Positions 7,866 through 25,894 of a DNA stretch of 25,894 bases are shown piece after piece (position 1 is the stretch's first letter; each line of letters begins with the position of its first letter). The translations under genes and the position numbers were made by a program. Location of the stretch: the IMG/VR virus record IMGVR_UViG_3300003635_000023, positions 1 to 25,894 of that record. One strand, given 5' to 3'. Source of the stretch: a virus. The notes under the pieces are model-generated. The model saw only the letters and a program-made list of their open reading frames with translations, was not told the DNA's origin and made no database searches.

Positions 7866-9908
7866 AGTTGAATCACCTGTGTTATCAGCAGCAACGATTG
7901 TCGCAGGCTCGTTGCCAGTGCCATCGTTGTCCGATACAACGTCGATGGAGCGGTCAGCGGAGAGAACAGTCACCGAGTCATCATTCTCTCCTGCCTCATC
8001 GCCCGCATCAGCCGTTGAATCGGCATCATCTGCGGGGGTATCAGACATTTCTTCTTCGTCGTCTTCGTCTTCTTCTTCGTCTCTGTGCTTGGAAGTCGAT
8101 GCAACAACGTCCATATACTCTTCGTGAGTGTCACCCGGAACCCACATCGTCTCACCGTCAAACTCCATCTGGTGGACGCCTGTGAGACCGTCAGTGTCTT
8201 CAACGAAAGCCATCGCGTCGTCCTTCGACGCAAACCGATGGTCTTCTGGTACTTCTCCGTGTTCAGCCATTTGTTCACTACCTCCGTGCATTTGAAGGTC
8301 AGAGTAACCAGCCGTCACGGTGAAGCCAGTCGATACAGGTTCGCCGTCCTGCATTTCGTGAACCTCTACCATCACAATGTCCTTCTCGTCATCAATGTGG
8401 ACAATCTTTCCGAACATCGCCGGGTTAACTTGCCACTCGACCATCTGACCTTCGCTAAATTCGGGCGCTTCGGCGGCTTCTTCCTCACCCCAGTCCTTGT
8501 CGAAAACTTCACTGGCGGTTTCGTTGACCCACTGCATAATACGGCTTTCCATTTCACTGGAAAGTCCATCAACAGCAGTCGCGCCACGTCCACCTTTTAC
8601 AGCGGAGAGAGCGTTCAACGAAAGCTCACCATCCGGTTCAACAACCGGAAGCTTTAAGTCTCCGTAAGACTCTGGAGGGAAGCCACCTCGCGCAATCAGG
8701 AAGTGATTCCCGATTGCATTTCGCGTATCCTCGTCAAGCTCACCAAAGTCAGTACCAGCTTCAAAGTCGTACTCACTGGCGAAATCTTCGAGGTTCGGAT
8801 TGTTCCATTCATCGGTGTGTTCGCCATCCCACTCAGGCGTGTGCATCGAGTAATCTGCAAGTTCTTCCACGTTCATCTCGTCTGCTTCAGATGCTCGTTC
8901 TTCCTCTTCATACTCGTGCATACCCTGACGGTCTTCGTCTGGCGTGTCACCTTCTTCTGGATACCGTTCCGGCTCTTCATCGTACTTGTGTGGGTTGCCG
9001 TCAAACTCTGCTCCTTCTGGAACGTCGTAGGACGACTGTTCTGCGGAATCCCACTCTTGGAGCGCCGAGAAGCGCTTTGCCATCAGTGTCTCGGTTGGTT
9101 GCCACTCACCTTCACTGTATTCGTACACGCGAAGAAGAGCAGCAGGATTTTGCTCCGTACCACTGACAGGTTGATTATTACTGATGTTCTGATTCTCGAT
9201 TGTTCCGTCGTAAACTACTTCCTCAATCCGAGCCGGTGTCGGATTTTCTTCATTGTTCATCACGCTGTCATTGAGTCCAGCAAGGACAAAATCGCCTTCC
9301 TTGAACTCTTGTAGCTCGTCACCGTCAACGTCAACGCCCATCATCTGAGCGCATTCGGCAGCGGAAAGTTCCGAAGACGGACCCATCTCGGCGGTGTTGC
9401 TCGGTGCAGCACCAGATGGGACAATACTCAAATTATCGAATTTGACTCTCTGAACCAACTTTGCACCGTTTTCGGCCTCCTCCATATTCTCAACGTCACC
9501 GTGATACCCACGGATAGAAACTTCGAGAAGACCATTCTTTACGCGCTCTGCAAGTTCCTCGTCGTATAGTTCGGCTTCGTACAGCACACCAACTCCATCT
9601 TTATAGGTAGTCGAAATAACTTCACCTACGACTCCTCGGGATGAATTGTCGTGGTCTTCCACAAGGGAACGACCTTCGAGGGAGTCTACGGCTGGCTTGA
9701 GCGCTTCTCGGGGCCACTTCTTCCGAATACCGGATTGACCACGAGTAACGTCACCTTCCCCAATAGCGATTCCGTGAATCGTCCACGGTGCATCACCTTC
9801 AAGTTCACTGGAAAGATGTGCGTTATTGCGTTCAAGTTCTACCGATTCTTGCTGTACACTCATATGTTGAAGTTCAGAAACAGCCAACTCAGTTGTGTCT
9901 CGTCTCAT
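7311..9908 (-). CDS. Prohead protease fused to scaffold
   Basis: A multidomain 865-residue protein. Residues ~20-175 look like a prohead serine protease: the His of EDHD (about 86), the Ser of EVSIRG (about 131) and the strand LSIVPSGAAPSN (160-171) fit the S78/U35-type fold. Residues ~390-470 carry a helical segment with NHFLIARGG and PVVEPDGEL. Residues ~484-540 form a tudor/KOW-like beta unit (GQMVEWQV...GKIVHI), and ~575-600 hold GLTGVHQMEFDG and the MWVPGDTHEEY segment. The last ~180 residues are a very acidic coiled coil expected of an internal scaffold. The protease would cleave scaffold and capsid arms inside the prohead. The ATG at 9908 sits at the end of a duplicated promoter module; TATA spacing suggests a leaderless message. 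Much longer than a lone protease. Confidence 0.75.
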   Translation of the reverse strand: MRRDTTELAVSELQHMSVQQESVELERNNAHLSSELEGDAPWTIHGIAIGEGDVTRGQSGIRKKWPREALKPAVDSLEGRSLVEDHDNSSRGVVGEVISTTYKDGVGVLYEAELYDEELAERVKNGLLEVSIRGYHGDVENMEEAENGAKLVQRVKFDNLSIVPSGAAPSNTAEMGPSSELSAAECAQMMGVDVDGDELQEFKEGDFVLAGLNDSVMNNEENPTPARIEEVVYDGTIENQNISNNQPVSGTEQNPAALLRVYEYSEGEWQPTETLMAKRFSALQEWDSAEQSSYDVPEGAEFDGNPHKYDEEPERYPEEGDTPDEDRQGMHEYEEEERASEADEMNVEELADYSMHTPEWDGEHTDEWNNPNLEDFASEYDFEAGTDFGELDEDTRNAIGNHFLIARGGFPPESYGDLKLPVVEPDGELSLNALSAVKGGRGATAVDGLSSEMESRIMQWVNETASEVFDKDWGEEEAAEAPEFSEGQMVEWQVNPAMFGKIVHIDDEKDIVMVEVHEMQDGEPVSTGFTVTAGYSDLQMHGGSEQMAEHGEVPEDHRFASKDDAMAFVEDTDGLTGVHQMEFDGETMWVPGDTHEEYMDVVASTSKHRDEEEDEDDEEEMSDTPADDADSTADAGDEAGENDDSVTVLSADRSIDVVSDNDGTGNEPATIVAADNTGDSTMTDEITQDELEELRRKADAYDELEEGDEGGADPSEAVEELREEFQSDLEELKERTAILDEVDRSDVEALQETDEPHIMESEKYEQLEEDVESVRSLYAEALSERTGVPAERIQDKWTLEEMREDLEDELEEGEELEGELTPDPQGADPDEEELEEAAEVEAGEGDSTSEEASEKQEEIRQRILE

Positions 9909-9939
9909 AATGCTTGTAATTAGGATGGGTACTTAAAAG
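9904..9939 (-). promoter_or_regulatory. Duplicated late promoter module, copy 1
   Basis: On the minus strand: CTTTTAA TATA box (9933-9939), 10 variable nt, then TAATTACAAGCATTATGAG ending in the protease start codon. The same TATA, spacing and 19-mer occur at 16594-16629. A TATA box ~27 nt before the ATG predicts a leaderless transcript. Confidence 0.7.
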
Positions 9940-14121: not shown

Positions 14122-15462
14122 TCAACGGACACTGCCAAGATTAAAAGGCTTCATACTCTCCTTGTCCGACAGAGCCGTGTTCTTCTTATTTTTTGCCCAC
14201 ACAGCGAGTGCGAGCGAGTCACAGAAGTCGTCGTGACCGCCAGACGGGTGTGCAATCTTTAGCTTGCCTGTACTCGTGTAATCGTACTCCAGCGCCGTAA
14301 GCTGCTGCTTCATCGTGTTCGAGTCACGGCCAGCGTTTGGCTCGAAGCGGAACGTCAGCGCACGGTTCTGGAAGTTGTTCTTCAGGTTGGAATAGATGGA
14401 CTGCTTTTTGTCGTTCGTGAACTTGACACCTTCCACTTTTTGACCGAGGTCTTCCTGTACTTGGTCAACCACACCAGCACCGAGACCAGTCTGGTCGATA
14501 AGGATTTTGTCGTACTGGTTGTACTTGTCAAGTTCTCGAATACGTCCCATCGCGTCCGTAAGCTGCTTGCTCTTTGTGTGTTCAATGTCGAAGATGTTTC
14601 CGTTTCCGTCAACAGAGATGTACACAGATTCGTCTTCACCAGTGTGAGCAAGGTCTACGCCGAGGTATGCGTCGTTGGTCTCCCGAGTAACTGGGTGTCC
14701 AACGGCGACTTCCTCGTGCGTCACTTCTTCCTCCGTGAAGTACGCATCCGCGTTCTCATCGAACTCTCCACGAATCTCGCGCTTGAACTGCATTGGCGTG
14801 AGGTTGTTCCGCTGTCGCTCTATGAATTTCTCTGGTACACGCGGATTCTTCCACGTCGGAACTTGTTGAACGAAGTAGTCGTTCTCGTCCCGTTCGGCTT
14901 CATCGAAGCGCTTGTAGAAGAAGCCACGCTTGCCGCGTGGTGTGGAAATCATCACGAACTGGTTCTCACCAACAGCGAGGAACGGCATCAGGACTTCTTG
15001 GAAAATCTCCTCGGGAACGTAAGCTGCCTCGTCTACGATAAGGAGGTCAGCCCCGTATCCACGAATATTAGAGCCATCACGACCAAGAGGTAAACACACA
15101 ATGCGCGAACCGTTAGAGAAGTTAATCTCCGTTCGCGTCTCTCGCTGGATTCCCCATTCGTCGCTTTCAGCCTTACTGCCTCGCATCTCCGACTTGATTT
15201 GTCGGAACAGTTCCATCGACTGGCGCTGTGTCTTCGCTGTCAGCAGCACTTCTGCTTCAGCGTGCGTGATAGCGTACCAGAGCGCTTTCCACGAAGCAGA
15301 GCGTGACTTACCAACACGACGGCCAGCTACGAAAAGCTTTCGATTATTGGCGGAGTCCAAAAATTCCTTCTGGTAGTCGAACGGCTCGACACCGATAAAT
15401 TCCTCTACGAAGTACGAGGGTTCAGTGACAAGCCGCTTCAGGTCGAGGTCTTCACCAATCAT
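14122..15462 (-). CDS. terL: Terminase large subunit (DNA packaging ATPase-nuclease)
   Basis: A 446-residue packaging motor. N-terminal ATPase: Walker A GRRVGKS (about 47-53), Walker B LLIVDEA (140-146, with catalytic Glu145), coupling motif STPRGK (173-178). C-terminal RNase H-fold nuclease: first Asp in YLGVDLAHTG (270), second in ILIDQTGLGAG (323), third cluster in GHDDFCDSLALAVW (411-415). All key residues look present, so the enzyme should be active: it cuts concatemeric viral DNA and pumps it through the portal. Its ATG overlaps the preceding stop (ATGA), so translation is coupled to the unknown upstream gene. Normal length for the family. Confidence 0.95.
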   Translation of the reverse strand: MIGEDLDLKRLVTEPSYFVEEFIGVEPFDYQKEFLDSANNRKLFVAGRRVGKSRSASWKALWYAITHAEAEVLLTAKTQRQSMELFRQIKSEMRGSKAESDEWGIQRETRTEINFSNGSRIVCLPLGRDGSNIRGYGADLLIVDEAAYVPEEIFQEVLMPFLAVGENQFVMISTPRGKRGFFYKRFDEAERDENDYFVQQVPTWKNPRVPEKFIERQRNNLTPMQFKREIRGEFDENADAYFTEEEVTHEEVAVGHPVTRETNDAYLGVDLAHTGEDESVYISVDGNGNIFDIEHTKSKQLTDAMGRIRELDKYNQYDKILIDQTGLGAGVVDQVQEDLGQKVEGVKFTNDKKQSIYSNLKNNFQNRALTFRFEPNAGRDSNTMKQQLTALEYDYTSTGKLKIAHPSGGHDDFCDSLALAVWAKNKKNTALSDKESMKPFNLGSVR

Positions 15463-16558: not shown

Positions 16559-16598
16559 AGTAATCACCGTGTGGGAGTCGGGCGCAGTTGGTCCTCAT
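16551..16598 (-). CDS. Leaderless 15-codon uORF before terS
   Basis: Begins at the ATG of the duplicated TAATTACAAGCATTATGAG module, reads MRTNCARLPHGDYYD, and stops with TGA inside the start region of terS (TATGACTGAG). The TATA box at 16623-16629 places the transcription start at about the ATG. It probably lets a leaderless mRNA load ribosomes that then reinitiate on terS, or tunes terS output. The same ATG context starts the protease gene at 9908. Confidence 0.5.
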   Translation of the reverse strand: MRTNCARLPHGDYYD

Positions 16599-16629
16599 AA
16601 TGCTTGTAATTAGTGTTCGCCTTTAAAAG
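16594..16629 (-). promoter_or_regulatory. Duplicated late promoter module, copy 2
   Basis: CTTTTAA TATA box (16623-16629), 10 nt, then the same 19-mer ending ATGAG as at 9904-9939. GTGTGTTCAC lies 27 nt further upstream (16656-16665). Confidence 0.7.
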
Positions 16630-17458: not shown

Positions 17459-17670
17459 GACTGCCTTAGTTTTCAAAAGGTAGTTCAAGTAGTACTGAAT
17501 GCTTAGTGTTGATTGGGAGAGTGTGGTTGTGGTTTGGGTGAGTGGGGAGGTGGCCGTGGTTGGGTGAGGTGGATAGGCTTGGGGGTGGGTAATGTTAGGT
17601 TTTTGAAGGGAAGGGGTAATTCGGTTGCATATTTGAGATATTTTCAATCGCGGGTTGCCCCCCTTAAATT

Positions 17671-17800
17671 CGCAAAGAAATCTTTGCGTTATAAAAAAAT
17701 TGGTTGGTGGTTCGCAAAGCGATTTTGGTGAATCACAAAACAATTTTTTGCGAATCACAAAAATCGTTTTGCTCACTGCTAAAATCGCTTTGCTCACAGC
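17671..17800. repeat. AT-rich imperfect tandem repeats and hairpin
   Basis: Begins with a 7-bp-arm hairpin CGCAAAG-aaat-CTTTGCG (17671-17688). AATCACAAAA occurs twice, 22 bp apart (17731, 17753), and AAATCG(T/C)TTTGCTCAC twice, 21 bp apart (17761, 17782). Two-helical-turn spacing and AT content resemble iterons. Related words reappear inverted near 20640-20700. Confidence 0.6.
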
Positions 17801-17841
17801 AATATATTGTTTGCATATAACCAAATATAGCGCACGTATTA

Positions 17842-17944
17842 CAGCAGCAGCACAGCAGCAGCACAGCAGCAGCACAGCAGCAGCACAGCAGCAGCACAGC
17901 AGCAGCACAGCAGCAGCACAGCAGGCAGCAGCACAGCAGCAGCA
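17842..17944. repeat. 11-bp direct repeat array of CAG triplets
   Basis: Seven perfect copies of CAGCAGCAGCA (17842-17918), one irregular 15-bp unit (17919-17933), then one more perfect copy (17934-17944). The 11-bp period is close to one DNA turn, and because 11 is not a multiple of 3 the repeat is open in all frames and makes spurious poly-Leu/Cys ORFs. Helically phased 11-bp repeats recall plasmid R1 parC centromere repeats, but no partition gene is seen here. Confidence 0.9.
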
Positions 17945-19481: not shown

Positions 19482-19518
19482 GGGAACCGGAAACCTTATA
19501 TAGAACCCGGTTCCCTGC
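19482..19518 (+). repeat. Degenerate array element (IR0) at the left boundary
   Basis: The sequence from AAACCTTATATAG to CCCTGC matches the right half of the array repeat. It also contains a 9-bp inverted repeat GGGAACCGG/CCGGTTCCC around a TTATATA box. Its CCCTGC end and the next repeat's GCAGGG form a hairpin (19513-19529). Confidence 0.45.
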
Positions 19519-19523
19519 ATTGT

Positions 19524-19571
19524 GCAGGGTAAAACTATACTTAAAGGTTGGGGTGTATGGTTATACCCTGC
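19524..19571 (+). repeat. Array repeat IR1 (48 bp, short form)
   Basis: GCAGGGTAAAAC ... ACTTAAAGGTTGGGG ... TTATACCCTGC. Lacks the central GGGGGAAAGGTTTATG block. Lies between two gene 3' ends. Confidence 0.9.
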
Positions 19572-19612
19572 GAAGCTGAAGGGCGCGACCCTCAGATTAG
19601 GCCCGCTGCTAC

Positions 19613-19765
19613 CTACAACTCGAAAGTGAAATCACTTTGAGATACGCCTTTCATATTTTCGACTTCATCCCACGTATACCAAATTTCATCTATTACCTCG
19701 TTATCTTCCCCGTATACTGATATACTGATTCCTTCGTGTGTAAACCGACCGTCTACTGTAGGCAT
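19613..19765 (-). CDS. Cassette 1: 50-residue unknown protein
   Basis: Reads MPTVDGRFTHEGISISVYGE followed by DNEVIDEIWYTWDEVENMKG and a short tail. Very acidic, beta then helix, with two Trp. Not recognised. It fills exactly the interval between repeats IR1 and IR2. Its promoter is on the right: a TATA-like CTTTTTACTTA at ~19794-19804 preceded by TCGAATATAGAAAG, a diverged form of the array promoter. A weak hairpin (TGAAGGG/CCCTCA) follows its stop. Confidence 0.6.
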   Translation of the reverse strand: MPTVDGRFTHEGISISVYGEDNEVIDEIWYTWDEVENMKGVSQSDFTFEL

Positions 19766-19824
19766 TACAAATTAACAGAAGGGAGGGATAAGTAAAAAGC
19801 TTTCTATATTCGACAGACAGAGCC

Positions 19825-19908
19825 GCAGGGTAGAACTTTACTTAAAGGTATGGGTATAGGTAAAGGGGGATAGGTAGGTGGGGGATTTATATAGGGGGAA
19901 TACCCTGC
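19825..19908 (+). repeat. Array repeat IR2 (84 bp, long form)
   Basis: GCAGGGTAGAAC ... TTACTTAAAGG ... ATTTATATAGGG ... ATACCCTGC with extra G/T/A-rich sequence in the centre. Lies between the cassette 1 promoter and the cassette 2 3' end. Confidence 0.9.
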
Positions 19909-19914
19909 GAGACC

Positions 19915-19940
19915 GGGGGGAGGGGGGGGGGGGGTCGGGG
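19915..19940 (+). repeat. Poly-G tract
   Basis: G6-A-G13-TC-G4 on the plus strand just after IR2, where the cassette 2 message ends. Likely length-variable and possibly quadruplex-forming; sequencing length here should be treated with caution. Confidence 0.8.
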
Positions 19941-20102
19941 TTAGATGAGACCCGCCGACCGCATCGGGGAGGTATGCCCGTTGGGGCATTCCCCGTCGTC
20001 TTCTATCCGGTGACCACAGGGGCAGACGATAACCCCGTCAGCTCCGACCATCCAGTCACCGTCTTGTGATTCCACGAACTCGCGCTTGGTTTCTCCGAAC
20101 AT
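19941..20102 (-). CDS. Cassette 2: 53-residue zinc-ribbon-like protein
   Basis: Starts at ATG 20102 (the ATG 5 nt earlier is out of frame). The N-terminus is MFGETKREFVESQDGDWMVG; residues 27-43 hold CPCGHRIEDDGECPNGH, i.e. C-P-C-G-H and C-P-N-G-H knuckles that should bind one zinc. The N-terminal part is a small beta unit. Single-gene cassette between IR2 and IR3, promoter ATCGACAGACTTATAT (minus, ~20129-20144). Probably a small nucleic-acid- or protein-binding module. Confidence 0.65.
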   Translation of the reverse strand: MFGETKREFVESQDGDWMVGADGVIVCPCGHRIEDDGECPNGHTSPMRSAGLI

Positions 20103-20128
20103 CGCATTTAGTTAGAAGGGTGGGGGAC

Positions 20129-20144
20129 ATATAAGTCTGTCGAT
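20129..20144 (-). promoter_or_regulatory. Cassette promoter (cassette 2)
   Basis: ATCGACAG directly followed by ACTTATAT, about 27-40 nt before the ATG. Confidence 0.6.
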
Positions 20145-20161
20145 TTGGGGACGAGAGCGAT

Positions 20162-20226
20162 GCAGGGTATATCTATACTTAAAGGTTTGGGTAAGGGGAA
20201 AAGTTTATGTAGGGGTTATACCCTGC
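20162..20226 (+). repeat. Array repeat IR3 (65 bp, canonical)
   Basis: GCAGGGTATATC ... ACTTAAAGGTTTGGG ... AGTTTATGTAGGGG ... TTATACCCTGC. Confidence 0.95.
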
Positions 20227-20248
20227 GACGAGAGGGTGGGGGCGGGAG

Positions 20249-20464
20249 CTATTCGAGAACTATGTAGTAATTGTAACCATTTCCGCCGACCGGGGAGACC
20301 GTCAGTGAGTGACCCGAAAGGGTATCCATTATTTCAGGGGTGAGACTGTCGTATTCCCCATTCCGAATTTCCGCTTTGACGACACCTTCAGTAACCCCGG
20401 CGTCGGCACGTTCGACGTTTCGGCACTTTGCTAACTCGATAGCTAATTGGGTTTTGCTTCCCAT
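20249..20464 (-). CDS. Cassette 3: 71-residue unknown protein
   Basis: MGSKTQLAIELAKCRNVERA opens a helical N-terminal half; the C-terminal half is beta, ending SLTVSPVGGNGYNYYIVLE. Not recognised. The helix-then-strand pattern would suit a small DNA- or protein-binding domain but no motif supports that. Sole gene between IR3 and IR4, promoter ACCGACAGAGTTAAGTGATA on the minus strand. The predicted message has a short leader. Confidence 0.65.
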   Translation of the reverse strand: MGSKTQLAIELAKCRNVERADAGVTEGVVKAEIRNGEYDSLTPEIMDTLSGHSLTVSPVGGNGYNYYIVLE

Positions 20465-20483
20465 ACACGTATGATGGGCGGGG

Positions 20484-20503
20484 TATCACTTAACTCTGTC
20501 GGT
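20484..20503 (-). promoter_or_regulatory. Cassette promoter (cassette 3)
   Basis: ACCGACAG followed by AGTTAAGTGATA. Confidence 0.6.
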
Positions 20504-20520
20504 ATGGAAACGAAAGCGAT

Positions 20521-20583
20521 GCAGGGTATATCTATACTTAAAGGTTGGGGTATCCGGGGGTTTTAAGTATAGGAATACCCTGC
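20521..20583 (+). repeat. Array repeat IR4 (63 bp)
   Basis: GCAGGGTATATC ... ACTTAAAGGTTGGGG ... TTTTAAGTATAGG ... ATACCCTGC. Lies between divergent genes. Confidence 0.95.
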
Positions 20584-20732
20584 GGGGAGCGTGGCGCGGG
20601 CGAGCTTATTTCACGGTCTCGGGGCTTGAATTTGGGGAAGCGTTTTGTGATTCGGCAAGCCGATTTTGCGATTCCCAAAGCGATGTTCGCATATCCCCAA
20701 GACCTACCAATCTGGTGACCAAAGCTTTATAG

Positions 20733-20751
20733 GGATACACCGAGTGTATCC
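20733..20751 (+). promoter_or_regulatory. Hairpin/operator before cassette 4
   Basis: GGATACAC-cga-GTGTATCC, 8-bp perfect arms, sits between the TATA box (AGCTTTATAG, ~20722-20731) and the start codon. Placed to act as a repressor site covering the transcription start. No other cassette has it. Confidence 0.5.
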
Positions 20752-20758
20752 AATTGCA

Positions 20759-21052
20759 ATGTCGGACTACCACGACGCGGAAGGCGAGGCAGTGAGCAAA
20801 GAACAACTGCGAATCGGTGACCGGGTAGCTCTGCGCGTGAGCTGGTTCGGGGACTTTCAGGAGGCTCTGGATAGGCCCACGTTCTTCACGGTGACGGAAG
20901 CGCCGACTCACATAGCCGACCGCATTCTCGAAGGCGACGACGGACACACGTACAAGCTCTACGACTCTCGGGCGACGGTGGAATGTCTGAGTGACGACAA
21001 AGAAGGCAAGCACCGGGGGAACCTGTCGGGGAGAGTCAAGAAGCTGAACTAA
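20759..21052 (+). CDS. Cassette 4: 97-residue unknown protein
   Basis: Start ATG 20759 is chosen for the array-typical AATTGCAATG context and the TATA box 30 nt upstream; an upstream in-frame ATG at 20666 would put the promoter inside the gene. Sequence begins MSDYHDAEGEAVSKEQLRIG and contains GDRVALRVSWFGDF, a likely small beta barrel, then PTFFTVTEAPTH and a basic C-terminus (RVKKLN). Function not recognised. It has the longest upstream region of any cassette, containing AT-rich words related to the 17.7-kb repeats and the hairpin at 20733. H-type promoter lacks CGACAG (it has GACCAAAGCTTTATAG). Confidence 0.65.
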   Translation: MSDYHDAEGEAVSKEQLRIGDRVALRVSWFGDFQEALDRPTFFTVTEAPTHIADRILEGDDGHTYKLYDSRATVECLSDDKEGKHRGNLSGRVKKLN

Positions 21053-21085
21053 GAGGAGACCCTTCGGCTGCGGCTGCGGCTGGCC

Positions 21086-21167
21086 GCAGGGTATATCTAT
21101 ACTTAAAGGTTAGGGTAGAGGGGATGAACACACTCCTCCCTAAGAGTTAAGTAGGGATACACCCTGC
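21086..21167 (+). repeat. Array repeat IR5 (82 bp, GAACACACT form)
   Basis: Canonical ends, but the centre carries GGGGATGAACACACT ... AGAGTTAAGTAGGG, nearly identical to IR10. Lies between converging genes. AGTGTGTTT at 21184-21192 could pair with its GAACACACT. Confidence 0.95.
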
Positions 21168-21190
21168 GAAGCCGAGGGGCGCGAGTGTGT

Positions 21191-21427
21191 TTACTCGTCT
21201 ATCACTTCATAGTCGCGCCATTCGAGTTGTTCGTGTAGGTCAGAAAGTGCGATACTACGCGGGCCTTCGGGCGCATCAGGGGCGGTCTCTTCTATGCGAA
21301 GCTGAACCACGCCGTCCTCGTCGGCGTACATCGACTTGACGATGACCCTATCTTCAACGGGCGCACCGTCTGCCGGGCGCTGCCATTCGATGACCGTACC
21401 GGGTTCGATGATGGGGTATTCCACCAT
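21191..21427 (-). CDS. Cassette 5: 78-residue unknown beta-rich protein
   Basis: MVEYPIIEPGTVIEWQRPAD begins a protein with PGTVIEW, RVIVKSMYADEDGVVQLRIEE and IALSDLHEQLEWRDYEV. It looks like a small SH3-like or tudor-like barrel similar in style to the barrel inside the protease fusion, but no family is certain. Only gene between IR5 and IR6. Promoter ACCGACAGCTTTATC on the minus strand; the TATA-ATG distance fits a nearly leaderless message. Confidence 0.65.
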   Translation of the reverse strand: MVEYPIIEPGTVIEWQRPADGAPVEDRVIVKSMYADEDGVVQLRIEETAPDAPEGPRSIALSDLHEQLEWRDYEVIDE

Positions 21428-21450
21428 ATAGGGTAATAGAGTGGGGAAGG

Positions 21451-21465
21451 GATAAAGCTGTCGGT
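21451..21465 (-). promoter_or_regulatory. Cassette promoter (cassette 5)
   Basis: ACCGACAGCTTTATC, consensus form. Confidence 0.65.
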
Positions 21466-21472
21466 CTGCGAT

Positions 21473-21547
21473 GCAGGGTATATCTATACTTAAAGGTTGG
21501 GGGAAGGGGATGGGTTGGGGAAAGTTTATATAGTATAACCACCCTGC
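21473..21547 (+). repeat. Array repeat IR6 (75 bp)
   Basis: GCAGGGTATATC ... ACTTAAAGGTTGGGGG ... AAGTTTATATAG ... ACCACCCTGC. Lies between divergent genes. Confidence 0.95.
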
Positions 21548-21566
21548 GGGGAGGTAGCGGGGCTGT

Positions 21567-21581
21567 ATCGACAGCTTTATG
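21567..21581 (+). promoter_or_regulatory. Cassette promoter (cassette 6)
   Basis: ATCGACAGCTTTATG, consensus form, ~30 nt before the start codon. Confidence 0.65.
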
Positions 21582-21608
21582 GTTCCCCCACCCCTCTACC
21601 CATATGCA

Positions 21609-21911
21609 ATGGCGAAGCAGGTAATTTCCGTCGAGACCGAGGAACCGCGATTCAGTCAGAAGACCGTCTACCACGTCCACACGGACGCGGGCGAGACCTA
21701 CGTCTTCGAGCAGTGGCCCGACGCGCCGGGCGTGCGCTTCGTGCGCCGTGGCGCGGGCGACGACGGGCGCGAGGACTGTACCACCGTCAACTACACGCTG
21801 CCGCGCAACGTGCGCCGCGTGGCGAACGCGATGTTCGGGGGCGTGCGCGAGGCGTGCGGAGCCGACGCGGAGCCGCGCAAGGCCGAGCCGGTCGGCTGGT
21901 ACAAGGACTGA
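21609..21911 (+). CDS. Cassette 6: 100-residue unknown protein, GC-rich
   Basis: Start ATG 21609 chosen for the ATATGCAATGG context and promoter spacing; an earlier in-frame ATG at 21579 overlaps the TATA box. MAKQVISVETEEPRFSQKTV leads into strands (TVYHVHTDAGETYVFEQW, GVRFVRRG) then a helix NVRRVANAMFGGVREA. Not recognised. Base composition is much more GC-rich than the other cassettes (many GCG/CGC codons), suggesting recent acquisition from a high-GC haloarchaeon. A T10 tract follows its stop. Confidence 0.65.
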   Translation: MAKQVISVETEEPRFSQKTVYHVHTDAGETYVFEQWPDAPGVRFVRRGAGDDGREDCTTVNYTLPRNVRRVANAMFGGVREACGADAEPRKAEPVGWYKD

Positions 21912-21928
21912 ACCGGCCTTTTTTTTTT
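21912..21928 (+). terminator. T-tract terminator after cassette 6
   Basis: ACCGGCC followed by ten T, typical of archaeal oligo-T termination. Confidence 0.65.
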
Positions 21929-21940
21929 CGCAACCGCACC

Positions 21941-22006
21941 GCAGGGTATACCCTTACTTAAAGGTTGGGGGTAGGGGGAAAGGATTATATAGTGGAAAAA
22001 CCCTGC
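21941..22006 (+). repeat. Array repeat IR7 (66 bp)
   Basis: GCAGGGTATACCC ... ACTTAAAGGTTGGGGG ... AGGATTATATAG ... CCCTGC; right end partly degenerate. Confidence 0.9.
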
Positions 22007-22013
22007 GAGGAGA

Positions 22014-22030
22014 ACCGACAGGGTTAAGTA
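22014..22030 (+). promoter_or_regulatory. Cassette promoter (cassette 7)
   Basis: ACCGACAGGGTTAAGTA, ~30 nt before the ATG. Confidence 0.6.
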
Positions 22031-22058
22031 TCCGGGGAGCGTAGGGGGTAGTGTAACG

Positions 22059-22226
22059 ATGACGATGACCTACTGCCGAACGTGTCAGCGCGACGTGCAT
22101 ATCACGCACGACGAGGAAGAGTGTACCGGCGAGCCGAACCTTCGAGTCCCCGACGAGCTTCGAGGCGAGCGGGTGGCGCGAGAGGAACACGACGAGCCTG
22201 CGCGAGACCCACCGGACGTTTACTGA
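22059..22226 (+). CDS. Cassette 7: 55-residue Cys-His knuckle protein
   Basis: Reads MTMTYCRTCQRDVHITHDEE followed by ECTGEPNL and an acidic, Arg-rich tail ending PPDVY. C6 and C9 with H14/H17 and C22 could coordinate zinc. A second in-frame ATG (22065) gives a protein two residues shorter. Its stop codon lies within a perfect 6-bp hairpin with a GCGA loop. Single gene between IR7 and IR8. Function unknown. Confidence 0.6.
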   Translation: MTMTYCRTCQRDVHITHDEEECTGEPNLRVPDELRGERVAREEHDEPARDPPDVY

Positions 22227-22239
22227 GGCGCGAGCCTCA
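22224..22239 (+). terminator. Hairpin at the stop of cassette 7
   Basis: TGAGGC-gcga-GCCTCA: perfect stem with a stable GCGA loop, starting at the stop codon. Confidence 0.5.
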
Positions 22240-22244
22240 GCTTC

Positions 22245-22310
22245 GCAGGGTAGAACTATACTTAAAGGTTTGGGATAGGGGGAAAGCTTTTTATAGGGGA
22301 TATACCCTGC
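22245..22310 (+). repeat. Array repeat IR8 (66 bp)
   Basis: GCAGGGTAGAAC ... ACTTAAAGGTTTGGG ... AAAGCTTTTTATAGGGG ... TATACCCTGC. Lies between converging genes; shares its AGCTTTTTATAGG centre with IR14. Confidence 0.95.
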
Positions 22311-22332
22311 CGCGAGGAGGCCGCCCGACCTC

Positions 22333-22446
22333 TCAGTAGGGGTATTCCCCTTGTTCGAGTCTCTGGTTGGCCGGGTGGTCGTCCCGAACAACGCCGCCGA
22401 TGATTTCGTCCAATTCTCGCTGGTAGGTGGCTTTGTCGTAGGCCAT
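22333..22446 (-). CDS. Cassette 8: 37-residue unknown protein
   Basis: MAYDKATYQRELDEIIGGVV followed by RDDHPANQRLEQGEYPY. One amphipathic helix plus a polar tail. It is the smallest cassette but has everything the others have: the AATTGCAATGG start, promoter AACCGACAGACTTATACGT on the minus strand, and repeats on both sides. These signals are the main evidence that so short an ORF is real. Confidence 0.6.
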   Translation of the reverse strand: MAYDKATYQRELDEIIGGVVRDDHPANQRLEQGEYPY

Positions 22447-22470
22447 TGCAATTACGTCTAACAGGGGGAT

Positions 22471-22489
22471 ACGTATAAGTCTGTCGGTT
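22471..22489 (-). promoter_or_regulatory. Cassette promoter (cassette 8)
   Basis: AACCGACAGACTTATACGT, consensus form. Confidence 0.65.
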
Positions 22490-22505
22490 TGGGGAGAGTA
22501 GCACC

Positions 22506-22570
22506 GCAGGGTATATTTATACTTAAAGCTTTGGGTAGGGGGAAAGGTTTATGTAGGGGATATACCCTGC
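22506..22570 (+). repeat. Array repeat IR9 (65 bp, canonical)
   Basis: GCAGGGTATATT ... ACTTAAAGCTTTGGG ... AAGGTTTATGTAGGGG ... TATACCCTGC. Lies between divergent genes. Confidence 0.95.
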
Positions 22571-22579
22571 GTTGCGACC

Positions 22580-22594
22580 ACCGACAGCTTTATG
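22580..22594 (+). promoter_or_regulatory. Cassette promoter (cassette 9)
   Basis: ACCGACAGCTTTATG; TATA-ATG distance ~28 nt, so leaderless. Confidence 0.65.
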
Positions 22595-22618
22595 TTTGGG
22601 GGGTGCGTATGGGTAGGT

Positions 22619-22945
22619 ATGGCATACGACAGGGGAACCGTCGTGTTGGCCCGTGAACCGTACTCGACCAACCACACCGCCCGCCCGTTCCTGATAGTGT
22701 CAACCGAGGACTACGAACCGGACGGCTATCTCGGTGTCCCTCTGACGACGCGAGATAAGCCGAACACCTACGAGTTGACAGACTACGACAAGGAAGAGAC
22801 CTTCGAACCGTTCGAAAAGGATGAAAACTTTGTGAACCCTTCAAGTCCGTGTCAGGTCAACGACCCACAGCGCCCCCTCTGCCGAGTGTCTGACGACTTC
22901 GTGGATATGGTGGCGGAGTTGGTCGCAAAGGCGATAGGGGCTTGA
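22619..22945 (+). CDS. Cassette 9: PemK/MazF-like toxin-fold protein
   Basis: A 108-residue protein, start ATG 22619 (GGTATGGCATAC), placed ~28 nt after the TATA box; an upstream ATG at 22592 lies within the promoter. The order of motifs fits the PemK/MazF SH3-like barrel: RGTVVLAREPYS near the start (~5-16), ARPFLIVSTEDY (~30-41), YLGVPLTTRDKP (~46-57), SSPCQVND...CRVSDDF (~84-102) and a C-terminal helix VDMVAELVAKAIG. MazF-type proteins are mRNA interferases. No antitoxin is encoded next to it in this orientation, unlike a normal toxin-antitoxin pair, so it may act alone on host mRNA or be an inactive relative. Confidence 0.65.
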   Translation: MAYDRGTVVLAREPYSTNHTARPFLIVSTEDYEPDGYLGVPLTTRDKPNTYELTDYDKEETFEPFEKDENFVNPSSPCQVNDPQRPLCRVSDDFVDMVAELVAKAIGA

Positions 22946-22964
22946 GAGAGTGGGCAGCTTTCTC

Positions 22965-23046
22965 GCAGGGTATATCTATACTTAAAGGTTAGGGTAGAGG
23001 GGATGAACACACTGCCTCCCAAGAGTTAAGTAGAGGAATACCCTGC
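22965..23046 (+). repeat. Array repeat IR10 (82 bp, GAACACACT form)
   Basis: Same insertion as IR5. Lies between converging genes. GTGTGTTC at 23082-23089 could pair with its GAACACAC (23005-23012). Confidence 0.95.
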
Positions 23047-23095
23047 GGCGAGGAAGGCGAGGCCCCGCCGAGGGAAGGCGCGTGTGTTCGCCCGC

Positions 23096-23311
23096 CTACA
23101 GGTTGATGAATCCCCGAATCTGGTCGCCGTCCCGAAGCATTTCCGCGTCCACGTCGGCGCGACGGACAGCTCCGTAGAAGCTGCCTATGTCGTCTTCGGG
23201 GATGATAGCGTGAATATCGTCGTCCACGACAGCCGAAGCCTCTTCGACTATCGCGGCACTGGACAGGTTGGTTCGAATCTGTGCGACCGTGCGGGCAGTG
23301 TCTCGTGCCAT
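23096..23311 (-). CDS. Cassette 10: 71-residue unknown protein
   Basis: MARDTARTVAQIRTNLSSAA opens a helical, Ala/Asp-rich protein ending MLRDGDQIRGFINL. The ATATGCAATGG start and the promoter ATCGAAGGTGTTAAGTATCC on the minus strand place it firmly as a cassette gene. No family recognised; a short acidic helical protein could be a DNA-mimic or inhibitor, but that is guesswork. Confidence 0.6.
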   Translation of the reverse strand: MARDTARTVAQIRTNLSSAAIVEEASAVVDDDIHAIIPEDDIGSFYGAVRRADVDAEMLRDGDQIRGFINL

Positions 23312-23335
23312 TGCATATGGGTACAGGGCCGGGGG

Positions 23336-23353
23336 ATACTTAACACCTTCGAT
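23336..23353 (-). promoter_or_regulatory. Cassette promoter (cassette 10)
   Basis: ATCGAAGGTGTTAAGTAT, CGAA variant. Confidence 0.55.
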
Positions 23354-23370
23354 TTCGGACGGCGAGCGAT

Positions 23371-23433
23371 GCAGGGTATACCCTTACTTAAAGGTTAGGG
23401 GTGGGGGAACCTTTAAGTATAGAAGTACCCTGC
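23371..23433 (+). repeat. Array repeat IR11 (63 bp)
   Basis: GCAGGGTATACCC ... ACTTAAAGGTTAGGG ... CCTTTAAGTATAG ... GTACCCTGC. Lies between divergent genes. Confidence 0.95.
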
Positions 23434-23450
23434 GGTGCTGGTGAGAAGAA

Positions 23451-23466
23451 ATCGACAGCCTTAAGT
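23451..23466 (+). promoter_or_regulatory. Cassette promoter (cassette 11)
   Basis: ATCGACAGCCTTAAGT, consensus form. Confidence 0.65.
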
Positions 23467-23488
23467 GGATATGCGATAATGGTTATGT

Positions 23489-23923
23489 ATGGCCGCGAGC
23501 CTACTACTGAAACGGTTTGAGGCAACGTTTATCGACTGTGCCAGCGACAAATTCGCGCAGCATCTACACAGCCCTGAAGCCGTCGAAGAGCGGCTAATGA
23601 TGAAGGTTCACAACCTGTCGGGAGACCGGCGTCTGAAGTTGACCGACCGGGAAGCCGCTGCCTTGTGTGAGATTCTTCTCGAAGTGGAGACCTTTGAGGA
23701 ACCGCGCAGCGAGGCAGAGGTACAACTCGCTCGGGAGATTCTCGACCGGCTGGAGCTACCGGACGGGTGGGAAGACCCGTTCGAATTTGCGAAGGTGGTC
23801 GCAACCGCGAGCGAGGACAACCTTCGACCGGCGGAACCAATGAAACACGTCCCCGAGGGTGTGGACGAGATTCGGGCGGCACGCGAGCGACGGGGAGACC
23901 CACGCCGGGGATTCCTGCCGTAG
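23489..23923 (+). CDS. Cassette 11: 144-residue unknown helical protein
   Basis: The largest cassette gene. MAASLLLKRFEATFIDCASD starts an all-helical N-terminal half with LTDREAAALCEILLEVETF and SEAEVQLAREILDRLELPDGWEDPFEF in the middle; the C-terminus (HVPEGVDEIRAARERRGDPR) is basic. The helical repeats and basic tail would suit a small regulator or nucleic-acid-associated factor, but no known fold can be assigned. Sole gene between IR11 and IR12. Confidence 0.65.
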   Translation: MAASLLLKRFEATFIDCASDKFAQHLHSPEAVEERLMMKVHNLSGDRRLKLTDREAAALCEILLEVETFEEPRSEAEVQLAREILDRLELPDGWEDPFEFAKVVATASEDNLRPAEPMKHVPEGVDEIRAARERRGDPRRGFLP

Positions 23924-23941
23924 CGCGAGCGGGCGGTTTTT

Positions 23942-24003
23942 GCAGGGTATACCTATACTTAAAGGTTAGGGTGGGGAAAGACTTAAGGGTAGAAGTACCC
24001 TGC
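23942..24003 (+). repeat. Array repeat IR12 (62 bp)
   Basis: GCAGGGTATACC ... ACTTAAAGGTTAGGG ... GACTTAAGGGTAG ... GTACCCTGC. Confidence 0.95.
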
Positions 24004-24022
24004 GGCGCTGCCGTCAGGCGAT

Positions 24023-24038
24023 TTCGAAAGCCTTAAGT
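24023..24038 (+). promoter_or_regulatory. Cassette promoter (cassette 12)
   Basis: TTCGAAAGCCTTAAGT, CGAAAG variant. Confidence 0.6.
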
Positions 24039-24064
24039 CAATCCGGCTCTTGGTATAGGATGTA

Positions 24065-24433
24065 ATGGTTCGAAAGACCACGCGGAAAGCGGTCGCAGAG
24101 GTTTCGATTTCAGACAACGCCGGTACGCTGTACCTCGGTGTGGGAGTGAGGGAACAGTTGTCAATCGGCTACAACGACAAGGTTTCGGTCACTATCCCGA
24201 GCGCAGGCGAGACCGTGACGGGGTTCGTTGACTCGGCTGGTAACGTCTCTATCGGTGTCGGGAAGGCCCGCGAGATTCTCGAAGAGGCTACCACCGAAGA
24301 GGGACAGCGACAGGCAGAGGTCACCGAGGCAGAGGTCGAACCGGCCCGGCAGGTGTGGGAAGATGTTCACGGCGGGGCAGAGGCCCGGCGGGAGTCTGTC
24401 CCCCACCACGCTTCGCAGGTTCGCAACTGGTAG
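24065..24433 (+). CDS. Cassette 12: AbrB/MazE-like DNA-binding candidate
   Basis: A 122-residue protein. Residues ~18-65 read like a swapped-hairpin AbrB-type domain: GTLYLGVGVREQLSIG, then YNDKVSVTIPSAG and NVSIGVGKAREIL (compare the family pattern of strand, (V/I)RE-x-L-x-I, x-DKV-x-V). The N-terminus is basic (MVRKTTRKAVAE). The tail after ~75 is Glu-rich and helical, ending RRESVPHHASQVRNW. If the fold is right, this could be a regulator or an unlinked antitoxin for the MazF-like protein in cassette 9. Only the strand pattern supports this, so it stays tentative. Confidence 0.45.
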   Translation: MVRKTTRKAVAEVSISDNAGTLYLGVGVREQLSIGYNDKVSVTIPSAGETVTGFVDSAGNVSIGVGKAREILEEATTEEGQRQAEVTEAEVEPARQVWEDVHGGAEARRESVPHHASQVRNW

Positions 24434-24461
24434 GCCCGAGCGCTCGCGGTTCCTTCGCGGA

Positions 24462-24526
24462 GCAGGGTATATCTATACTTAAAGGTTGGGGTAGGGGGAA
24501 AGGTTTATGTAGGGAAATCACCCTGC
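24462..24526 (+). repeat. Array repeat IR13 (65 bp)
   Basis: GCAGGGTATATC ... ACTTAAAGGTTGGGG ... AAGGTTTATGTAGGG ... ATCACCCTGC. Confidence 0.95.
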
Positions 24527-24544
24527 GGTGCGGCTGCGGTGCGA

Positions 24545-24560
24545 ACCGACAGGTTTATAC
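24545..24560 (+). promoter_or_regulatory. Cassette promoter (cassette 13)
   Basis: ACCGACAGGTTTATAC, consensus form, ~30 nt before the AATTGCAATG start. Confidence 0.65.
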
Positions 24561-24586
24561 GTATCCCCCTCTTTGGTACAATTGCA

Positions 24587-24907
24587 ATGGCCGAACTACC
24601 GCACTCGGTGATGGACGTAGAGACTCGGGACAATATGCGCCGCGCACTCGAAGACAACGAACGGGTGTTCTTCCACCCACAGAAGGCACTCATAGCTGTG
24701 TGGTGTGGCGGTGCGACTGTGAACATCTACGACGCCGCGACGTGGGAAGAGGTCGATATGTTCACGCAGTCCCTCGCGTTCCGTGACGACTCCGAACTGT
24801 CGGACGTGGAGAACGCCGTAACGGTTCGGCTGGCCGACAGGGGCTTTGTGCGGGAAGGCCGGGGTTCAGGCACTCAAACACCACGCACACAGGTCACCCA
24901 ACGATAG
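24587..24907 (+). CDS. Cassette 13: 106-residue unknown protein
   Basis: Start ATG 24587 chosen for AATTGCAATGG and promoter spacing; an in-frame ATG at 24539 is upstream of the TATA box and cannot be used. MAELPHSVMDVETRDNMRRA leads to RVFFHPQKALIAVWCGGATVNIYDAATWEEVDMF, an alpha-beta unit, then a helix-strand pair with VENAVTVRLADRGFV. Not recognised. A possible tiny membrane peptide overlaps the end of the interval (see next entry). Confidence 0.6.
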   Translation: MAELPHSVMDVETRDNMRRALEDNERVFFHPQKALIAVWCGGATVNIYDAATWEEVDMFTQSLAFRDDSELSDVENAVTVRLADRGFVREGRGSGTQTPRTQVTQR

Positions 24908-24908
24908 C

Positions 24909-24968
24909 TTGTTAGGAATAATCATCGTCGGAATGATAGGCATAGGCATCTGGTTAGCCCTGCGGTAA
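24909..24968 (+). CDS. Possible 19-residue membrane peptide with TTG start
   Basis: Starting from TTG two bases after the stop of cassette 13, the frame reads LLGIIIVGMIGIGIWLALR, a perfect membrane helix with a basic end. The lack of ATG and the very small size make it uncertain. If real it is the only interval with two genes. Confidence 0.25.
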   Translation: MLGIIIVGMIGIGIWLALR

Positions 24969-24987
24969 GGGGCTTCGGCGGTTTTCC

Positions 24988-25053
24988 GCAGGGTAAAGGT
25001 ATACTTAAAGGTTGGGGGTAGGGGGAAAGCTTTTTATAGGGGATAGACCCTGC
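24988..25053 (+). repeat. Array repeat IR14 (66 bp)
   Basis: GCAGGGTAAAGG ... ACTTAAAGGTTGGGGG ... AAAGCTTTTTATAGGGG ... AGACCCTGC. Lies between converging genes. Confidence 0.95.
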
Positions 25054-25056
25054 GGC

Positions 25057-25072
25057 GAGGGGTTGGCCCCTC
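25057..25072 (-). terminator. Hairpin after cassette 14
   Basis: GAGGGG-TTGG-CCCCTC, perfect 6-bp stem 14 nt after the stop of the minus-strand gene. Confidence 0.45.
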
Positions 25073-25085
25073 AGCTACCTGTCAC

Positions 25086-25334
25086 TCAGCCGAGGAGCTT
25101 CCCGAGCGTATCGCGCTGTTCGGCTTCGACGTGCGCGACGATGTGCCCACCGACACGGGACGCCTCGAACTCGATACCCTCCGTGCGGAAGGTCTCGAAG
25201 AGCTGGCCCGCTTCGGCAGGGTGGGCCGAAACTCGAAGACCGCCTGCGTGTTCGGACTCTTCGACTTCGACGTTGTGTAGGTTGTTGTTCAGTGCGTTCT
25301 CCACGTCTCGTGCGTCGGGGATGTTGTCTCCCAT
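25086..25334 (-). CDS. Cassette 14: 82-residue unknown protein
   Basis: MGDNIPDARDVENALNNNLH opens a small alpha/beta protein with NVEVEESEHAGGLRVSAHPAEAG and FEASRVGGHIVAHVEAEQRD; the alternation of helix-strand-strand-helix-strand suggests a ferredoxin-like fold, unassigned. The AATTGCAATGG start and promoter ATCGAAAGACTTAAGG on the minus strand match other cassettes. Sole gene between IR14 and IR15. Confidence 0.65.
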   Translation of the reverse strand: MGDNIPDARDVENALNNNLHNVEVEESEHAGGLRVSAHPAEAGQLFETFRTEGIEFEASRVGGHIVAHVEAEQRDTLGKLLG

Positions 25335-25360
25335 TGCAATTGAATAGAAGGGCGGGTATA

Positions 25361-25376
25361 CCTTAAGTCTTTCGAT
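25361..25376 (-). promoter_or_regulatory. Cassette promoter (cassette 14)
   Basis: ATCGAAAGACTTAAGG, CGAAAG variant. Confidence 0.6.
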
Positions 25377-25393
25377 ATAGGACGAGCAGCAAC

Positions 25394-25457
25394 GCAGGGT
25401 ATACCCTTACTTAAAGGTTGGGGGTGGGGGAAGGTCTATGTAGGGGGAAGACCCTGC
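25394..25457 (+). repeat. Array repeat IR15 (64 bp)
   Basis: GCAGGGTATACCC ... ACTTAAAGGTTGGGGG ... AAGGTCTATGTAGGG ... AGACCCTGC. Lies between divergent genes. Confidence 0.95.
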
Positions 25458-25486
25458 GGGGCTGGAATCACCCTTATGGATATTGA

Positions 25487-25502
25487 ATCGAAGGGTTTAT
25501 AC
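25487..25502 (+). promoter_or_regulatory. Cassette promoter (cassette 15)
   Basis: ATCGAAGGGTTTATAC, CGAA variant; followed by CGTATCC as in cassettes 8 and 13. Confidence 0.6.
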
Positions 25503-25528
25503 GTATCCCGCTATATTATCTAATTGCA

Positions 25529-25873
25529 ATGGCGCAGAAGGCTACCACCCGACAGCAGCGAGCCGAAAAGCTTACGAACGTGCGCGTCTACGAGCTTCGA
25601 GACGGAGTGTTCGCGCTGCACTGTGAGAACGAGGACGGGGAATCGCGGAAGCGCGTTCTCGAACCCGGCGAGATGTACAGCAGTAGTCCCGATATGAAGT
25701 ACCGCCCGCACGTCATCGGGAAGTATATGCGGCGGCTGGCGATGGAGAACGAGAAGGCCCGGAAGCTCCTCGAAGACGGTGCGCGGGAGCGCATTCAGGA
25801 GTACGACAGTCGGGCCAACGACGCCCGCGAGAAGGCCAACACGCTACACTCGGGGCTTCTCGACGTTCGGTAG
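25529..25873 (+). CDS. Cassette 15: 114-residue unknown charged helical protein
   Basis: MAQKATTRQQRAEKLTNVRV begins a basic N-terminus, followed by a beta hairpin (VYELRDGVFALHCENEDGE) and a long C-terminal helix, about residues 60-105, rich in Arg, Lys and Glu (MRRLAMENEKARKLLEDGAR). Start AATTGCAATGG. It could be a small coiled-coil or nucleic-acid-binding protein; no family recognised. The stop is followed by ACCGGCCCCCGA and a T-run reaching the window edge. Confidence 0.65.
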   Translation: MAQKATTRQQRAEKLTNVRVYELRDGVFALHCENEDGESRKRVLEPGEMYSSSPDMKYRPHVIGKYMRRLAMENEKARKLLEDGARERIQEYDSRANDAREKANTLHSGLLDVR

Positions 25874-25894
25874 ACCGGCCCCCGATTTTTTTTT
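25874..25894 (+). terminator. T-tract terminator at window end
   Basis: ACCGGCC CCCGA then at least eight T, similar to the terminator after cassette 6 (ACCGGCC plus T10). Confidence 0.6.

Follow-up and report, generated by a model that had tools for sequence, protein, structure and literature searches.

Why do small genes that face both ways lie one by one between repeats that all point the same way? This question is raised by a viral DNA stretch of 25,894 nucleotides (IMG/VR record IMGVR_UViG_3300003635_000023, the whole of which is called the window here), in which 15 repeats of 48-84 bp, from 19524-19571 to 25394-25457, stand at 15 gene borders. Between 19.5 and 25.9 kb every slot contains one small gene. 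Eight of these genes are located on the plus strand and seven on the minus strand, and all 15 repeats have one polarity. This layout had been described in an earlier note on the same DNA and was confirmed by the coordinates and by a profile search. With moderate confidence we propose that the repeat is a bidirectional promoter/operator separating exchangeable and invertible gene cassettes, similar to the promoter-early stem-loops (PeSLs) of T4-like phages. The anatomy of the repeat, the gene boxes, the box orientation, the arm boundary, the array position and the gene sharing were read from the sequence, and from these we infer promoter activity, a regulator and a recombination mechanism.

The window covers part of the genome of a tailed virus from a salt lake, and its minus strand carries terminase, portal, capsid and sheath-like genes. 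The terminase shows 62% identity to its counterpart in the giant halovirus Halogranum tailed virus 1 (HGTV-1; host Halogranum sp. SS5-1), and judged by this similarity the source virus is a myovirus related to HGTV-1. The HGTV-1 isolate has a circularly permuted genome of 143,855 bp (PMC3950731). The array appears to be best read as a variable set of accessory genes in a Halomagnusviridae-like archaeal tailed virus. The record ends on the left inside the tape measure gene and on the right inside the array, which therefore probably continues past the right end. A 99.8% identical copy of the window virus (L039) covers the structural genes.

We counted the occurrence of GCAGGGTATA with at most two mismatches and obtained 42 matches compared to 12.7 +/- 4.1 in shuffled sequences. 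A profile made from the 15 copies recovered all of them on the plus strand (E 2e-9 to 8e-18) and found no further copy in L039 or elsewhere in the window; repeats away from gene borders, which the earlier note had named as an argument against its cassette idea, are thus absent from the window by this profile. As an imperfect dyad the element also produces profile matches on the minus strand, which are weak echoes of the 15 copies. The inverted ends described previously do exist, but strictly they comprise only the arm, which is invariant at 30 out of 30 repeat ends (GCAGGGT at the start, ACCCTGC at the end), and the bases next to it vary. In the other 19.5 kb GCAGGGT occurs only twice. An AT-rich box is located 15 to 17 nt inside each repeat end, with the sequence ACTTAAAGG on the left and variants such as TTTATGTAG on the right; only R1 has no right box. 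Identity between copies is 88% in the left half and 64% in the right half, and the similarities of left halves and of right halves among the copies are uncorrelated, as expected if the halves were reassorted. Convergent, divergent and tandem junctions occur five times each, and junction-specific repeat types were not observed (no effect across four types, p 0.55).

All 15 genes possess a promoter-like box, YCGACAG-N-TTA, 38-45 nt before the start codon (13.5-23 bits). A search for the strict motif gave 13 matches within the array and none in the other 19.4 kb, and a very similar box is found 32-46 nt ahead of the start of the HGTV-1 array genes. The position of the box is consistent with short-leader or leaderless transcription. 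As every gene carries its own box, the repeats are additional to the gene promoters, in agreement with the earlier statement that they are not simply promoters of the genes. The boxes within the repeats were scored by promoter matrices built from the gene boxes of the window virus and of HGTV-1. With the matrices from either virus the boxes of the window repeats face outward (15 out of 15 on the left, 13-14 out of 15 on the right), and those of the HGTV-1 repeats face inward on a central palindrome (26 out of 26 and 25-26 out of 26). In both viruses an inverted motif lies directly downstream of the TATA-like boxes, a position at which transcription would start or an operator could act.

The flanks of the repeats provide a further argument for cassettes. 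We compared the 30 repeat ends by gene role (start or end of the gene) and by the side of the repeat. Outside the arm, from the first base, starts resemble starts and ends resemble ends, even across opposite sides (p 0.0003-0.01). Inside the arm, again from the first base, an effect is seen for the side alone (p 0.0003 or lower) and none for gene role (p 0.45-0.65). The side effect is also present outside the arm; the switch to the role effect falls at the invariant arm.

Comparable arrays were found in two related viruses. The small genes of HGTV-1 at 128-143 kb are separated by gaps of about 110-185 bp and, across the ends of the record, border on the terminase module. Within the gaps, at 128.6-142.2 kb, a 68-bp element is present in 26 copies, all in one polarity, and no full-length copy exists in the HGTV-1 genome outside this range. 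It contains two TATA-like boxes as well as a central palindrome, CTCCTCGTG.CACGAGGAG. In a third virus, represented by a fragment (L043) whose terminase is 60% identical, 4-5 copies of another element occupy the same place; this one is composed of a TATA-like box, TTGCACCATGGTGCA and an adjacent T-rich stem-loop. The three elements are mutually different in sequence, and the repeat profiles of the window and of HGTV-1, each run against the genome of the other virus, returned no more than weak and partial matches, with the element sequence not shared. As far as these three sequences go, the place and the plan of the array are kept while the sequence of the element is replaced from virus to virus.

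The genes themselves give a similar picture. Four families (genes B, M, N and O) are common to the window and HGTV-1 (E 4e-5 to 5e-12), and L043 and HGTV-1 share one array gene (E 6e-10) and one flanking gene (E 5e-9). The earlier note had regarded the same genes in the same order, with freely varying repeats, as an outcome against cassettes. In part this is what we observe, as the four families keep the order outward from the terminase seen in HGTV-1 and the repeat sequence varies freely; however, three out of the four are inverted relative to the terminase and most array genes are not shared with HGTV-1. The related arrays differ from one another in the genes they contain, in gene orientation and in repeat sequence, which fits the cassette-like slots suggested before. 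Gene M and its HGTV-1 counterpart HGTV1_309 are each followed by a membrane peptide of 19-20 residues with WLAL near its end, so that a two-gene cassette seems to be kept, and the extra tiny peptide that had been suspected in one interval looks real. We further report that the HGTV-1 array contains three unannotated open reading frames (ORFs) for tiny membrane peptides of one family (...WLALT; L052 28021-28092, 35109-35174 and just below 41425).

Taken as a mechanism, each gene would be a self-contained cassette of 5' flank, own core promoter and small ORF. The imperfect dyad would supply two half-sites, each with an outward TATA-like box followed about 15 nt on by GCAGGGT, and could act as a bidirectional promoter/operator whose arms may be bound by a viral or host regulator. 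A repeat-borne promoter would then stand in front of every gene whichever its direction, and antisense transcription might come from the 3' side. The repeats could also supply the homology for cassette exchange, duplication and in-place inversion. The dyad places inverted half-sites on the two sides of each gene, and an inversion between them would turn the gene and leave the polarity of the repeats unchanged. Combined with tandem duplication or conversion, which may spread repeats in one direction, this would account for mixed genes within fixed repeats. HGTV-1 encodes functions of homologous recombination (a RadA-like protein, a Holliday junction resolvase and a RecB-like nuclease). We favour this explanation because the array location is conserved in HGTV-1 and L043, because of the gene boxes, the directions of the repeat boxes, the arm boundary, the shared inverted families and the uncorrelated halves, and because the repeats of the halovirus HF2 have promoter activity and HGTV-1 encodes homologous-recombination proteins. 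A more tentative extension is that the slots are orientation-neutral for expression: a bank of accessory genes may be inserted or flipped by arm recombination, each gene still receiving sense transcription from one side and antisense transcription from the opposite one, so that the sequence of the element would turn over and the slot architecture persist.

Several observations weigh against such a role. The array genes of HGTV-1 all face one way, the same order of four genes has a 1 in 24 chance, and the homology of gene B amounts to a short match of zinc-ribbon type. The viral and genome collections yielded no close relative that has a comparable array, so gain, loss or a flip of a cassette was not directly seen. 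The repeat boxes have mean scores of about 8 and 4 bits compared to about 20 for the gene promoters, so we speak of a promoter-like arrangement, not of a demonstrated promoter. The repeat boxes also persist where a sense promoter drives nothing, e.g. at convergent junctions, and may therefore do something else. Finally, gene role accounts for a small difference of about 5% identity in the flanks, for which functional motifs, and not moved DNA, could be responsible. In the same collections exact repeat patterns gave only single chance matches or unrelated bacterial contigs, and HGTV-1-like and L043-like patterns returned essentially their own records.

It is possible, although we doubt it, that the element is regulatory only, i.e. 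a virus-specific bidirectional operator/promoter that was homogenised in the genome and has no part in moving genes; mixed orientation and the arm boundary would then be by-products of rearrangement or selection. The geometry of boxes and arms suits this idea, as does a virus-specific dyad within an otherwise conserved promoter context in three relatives, and precedents are known from the HF2 repeats with promoter activity (PMC8707807), the SPBRE bound by the SPbeta repressor (PMC10516654) and archaeal early-gene regulatory motifs with inverted repeats (PMC11065993). It leaves unexplained, however, why the flanks switch from side-specific to role-specific exactly at the arm, and why orientations changed in place compared to HGTV-1. 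A bidirectional terminator or insulator isolating single-gene transcription units is unlikely. A repeat is present at every junction regardless of gene directions, the L043 element has its T-rich stem-loop, and many copies fold well as single strands (z to -8), but at least one strand of R6, R7, R13 and R14 is no more stably folded than shuffled sequence, and the arm never shows a compensatory change as an RNA stem might. No repeat is followed by a T-run, a run of at least five T within 20 nt of a stop codon being present only at genes F, K and O, and the repeat contains TATA-like boxes. Hairpins beyond the arms are not conserved. The plus strand folds more stably in all copies, and z-scores against shuffles of the same composition give no consistent preference for it.

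The fixed polarity, the G-richness of the plus strand in most copies and the position next to the terminase module could point to marks for replication, packaging or partition, or to G-rich strand structures, that depend on polarity. We regard this as very unlikely, as the elements of HGTV-1 and L043 at the same place have no G-runs and such marks have no need to track gene borders one by one. Still less probable are integron-like cassettes with the repeats as sites of a site-specific integrase, to which the earlier note had likened the array. While one gene per interval and gene-delimiting repeats of one polarity would fit, no recombinase, integrase or attI is present in the window, the only recombination functions annotated in HGTV-1 are those of homologous recombination, and the repeats have no features of integration sites: a spacer of 34-70 bp, lacking a conserved crossover core, separates the arms, and the repeat sequence is unrelated among the relatives. 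Integron cassettes are promoterless and mostly of one orientation relative to attC, but here every cassette has its own promoter-like box and either orientation occurs, and by the features tested the array is therefore not an integron. Least probable of all are multiple insertions of a miniature inverted-repeat transposable element (MITE) whose terminal inverted repeats would be GCAGGGTATA. A short element with inverted ends would agree with this, but target-site duplications occur at none of the 15 copies, which by that test is not the behaviour of a MITE; the repeats moreover have a single polarity and are confined to the gene borders of one array, and none were found in the genome or virus collections.

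The features of the array are collected in Table 1, together with the terminase gene used as a marker.

Table 1. Position of the repeats, the array genes with their promoter-like boxes, and the terminase gene in the window.
Feature	Position	Strand	Size	Box (strand)	Remarks
Terminase large subunit	14122..15462	-			marker placing the array and identifying the HGTV-1 relationship
R1	19524..19571	+	48 bp		convergent; no right AT box
Gene A	19613..19765	-	50 aa	19791-19807 (-)	
R2	19825..19908	+	84 bp		tandem, minus genes
Gene B	19941..20102	-	53 aa	20128-20144 (-)	zinc-ribbon-like; homologous to HGTV1_311
R3	20162..20226	+	65 bp		tandem, minus genes
Gene C	20249..20464	-	71 aa	20487-20503 (-)	
R4	20521..20583	+	63 bp		divergent
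Gene D	20759..21052	+	97 aa	20717-20733 (+)	
R5	21086..21167	+	82 bp		convergent; 96% identical to R10
Gene E	21191..21427	-	78 aa	21449-21465 (-)	
R6	21473..21547	+	75 bp		divergent
Gene F	21609..21911	+	100 aa	21567-21583 (+)	
R7	21941..22006	+	66 bp		tandem, plus genes
Gene G	22059..22226	+	55 aa	22014-22030 (+)	
R8	22245..22310	+	66 bp		convergent; 91% identical to R14
Gene H	22333..22446	-	37 aa	22472-22488 (-)	
R9	22506..22570	+	65 bp		divergent
Gene I	22619..22945	+	108 aa	22580-22596 (+)	MazF-like (phrog_1936, E 1.6e-4)
R10	22965..23046	+	82 bp		convergent
Gene J	23096..23311	-	71 aa	23337-23353 (-)	
R11	23371..23433	+	63 bp		divergent; nearly perfect dyad
Gene K	23489..23923	+	144 aa	23451-23467 (+)	
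R12	23942..24003	+	62 bp		tandem, plus genes
Gene L	24065..24433	+	122 aa	24023-24039 (+)	
R13	24462..24526	+	65 bp		tandem, plus genes
Gene M	24587..24907	+	106 aa	24545-24561 (+)	homologous to HGTV1_309
Tiny membrane-peptide ORF after M	24909..24968	+			TTG start; LLGIIIVGMIGIGIWLALR; similar unannotated peptide follows HGTV1_309
R14	24988..25053	+	66 bp		convergent
Gene N	25086..25334	-	82 aa	25360-25376 (-)	homologous to HGTV1_278
R15	25394..25457	+	64 bp		divergent
Gene O	25529..25873	+	114 aa	25487-25503 (+)	homologous to HGTV1_272

Apart from the MazF-like gene the array genes are without assigned function. The assignment of gene I to the MazF/PemK type comes from PHROGs, the Pfam match being below the cut-off, and no obvious antitoxin partner lies beside it. 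PADLOC and NCBIfam searches gave no confident family. Among viral contigs and phage records the array genes had no relatives at the sensitivity used; the HGTV-1 homologs were found by a more sensitive local search. Gene L was considered as an AbrB-like regulator, and this was dropped as the single-sequence model was too poor (mean pLDDT 50).

Some further observations concern the repeats and the rest of the window. R5 and R10 each lie at a convergent junction and include GAACACAC, the pairing partner of a GTGTGTT immediately to the right of the repeat; repeat plus 3' flank (21086-21200 and 22965-23085) look like one duplicated module. An Rfam search for structured RNA yielded nothing convincing, and a G-quadruplex as cause of the fixed polarity was rejected, as it is not kept in the relatives. 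A CAG-rich tandem repeat with an 11-nt unit is located at 17841-17935; the L039 assembly stops within it, so it probably broke the assemblies. The intergenic region 17640-17830 contains clustered inverted words such as GCAAAGCGATTTT and is origin-like, and two exact 12-nt matches to it recur, inverted, at 20600-20690 in the unusually long gap between R4 and gene D. A 36-nt sequence (CTCATAATGCTTGTAATTAG...) is present at 9904-9939 and 16594-16629 (81% alike), in each case close to the start of a minus-strand gene in the structural module, and possibly represents a class of late promoters. In L042 (3939-6856) a terminase relative adjoins a region with long 66/132-nt tandem repeats.

The array bears on the open question of how the many small genes of unknown function are taken up and rearranged by tailed viruses. 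It offers sharply defined borders at the 7-bp arm, a set of three related arrays whose elements are unrelated, and testable predictions. In other virus families archaeal anti-defence genes were found in arrays of single small genes under a shared regulatory sequence (PMC11065993), and the slots of the window are therefore candidate places for such genes in haloviruses.

The nearest known system is the array of HGTV-1. As recounted in a review (PMC3950731), Sencilo et al. 2013 described its intergenic motif and drew a parallel to the PeSLs of T4-like phages, so that the PeSL comparison is already published for this virus. Both arrays are located directly upstream of the terminase module, with one element per small gene or gene pair, a dyad with TATA-like boxes, fixed polarity, separate gene promoter boxes and the four shared families. 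They differ in the unrelated sequence of the element, in boxes pointing outward to terminal arms in the window and inward on a central palindrome in HGTV-1, and in the direction of the genes; with genes facing both ways, the window element does not precede each ORF in reading direction. PeSLs of the T4-like phages RB49 and phi1 are reportedly treated in Arbiol 2010 and Comeau 2014. As described elsewhere (see PMC3950731, PMC4503421), they are repeated modules of promoter and dyad in a variable region of small accessory genes, and are proposed to mediate shuffling, which in the window may likewise have occurred. A PeSL is read together with the gene downstream of it and includes a terminator, whereas the window repeat ignores gene direction and has no evident terminator.

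The comparability with HF-type haloviruses suggested earlier proved relevant, as the intergenic repeats of HF2 have measured promoter activity, some in both directions, and its class I and II repeats carry TATA boxes (PMC8707807). The TATA-containing beta core CTTTAAGT of the 58-bp class I repeat (alpha, beta and gamma motifs) is, by eye, also present in the left outward box of the window. Unlike the window, HF2 has only nine copies, at the starts of long transcription units and not per gene, with a sequence otherwise unrelated as far as compared. Many inverted-repeat copies among small right-arm genes are also known as the SAS/ESAS of cluster K mycobacteriophages and the 17-bp palindromes of cluster O, where copies are linked to gene insertions and deletions (PMC3203893, PMC4351075); these are bacterial phages, however, with SAS tied to translation starts and cluster O sites partly inside genes. 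The SPBRE of SPbeta is a repeated intergenic element shown to be a repressor site (PMC10516654), but it is associated with promoters in a bacterial prophage that has no single-gene array. Compared to these systems, new in the window are the repeat sequence, the outward geometry, the combination of genes facing both ways with repeats of one polarity, and the arm as a boundary.

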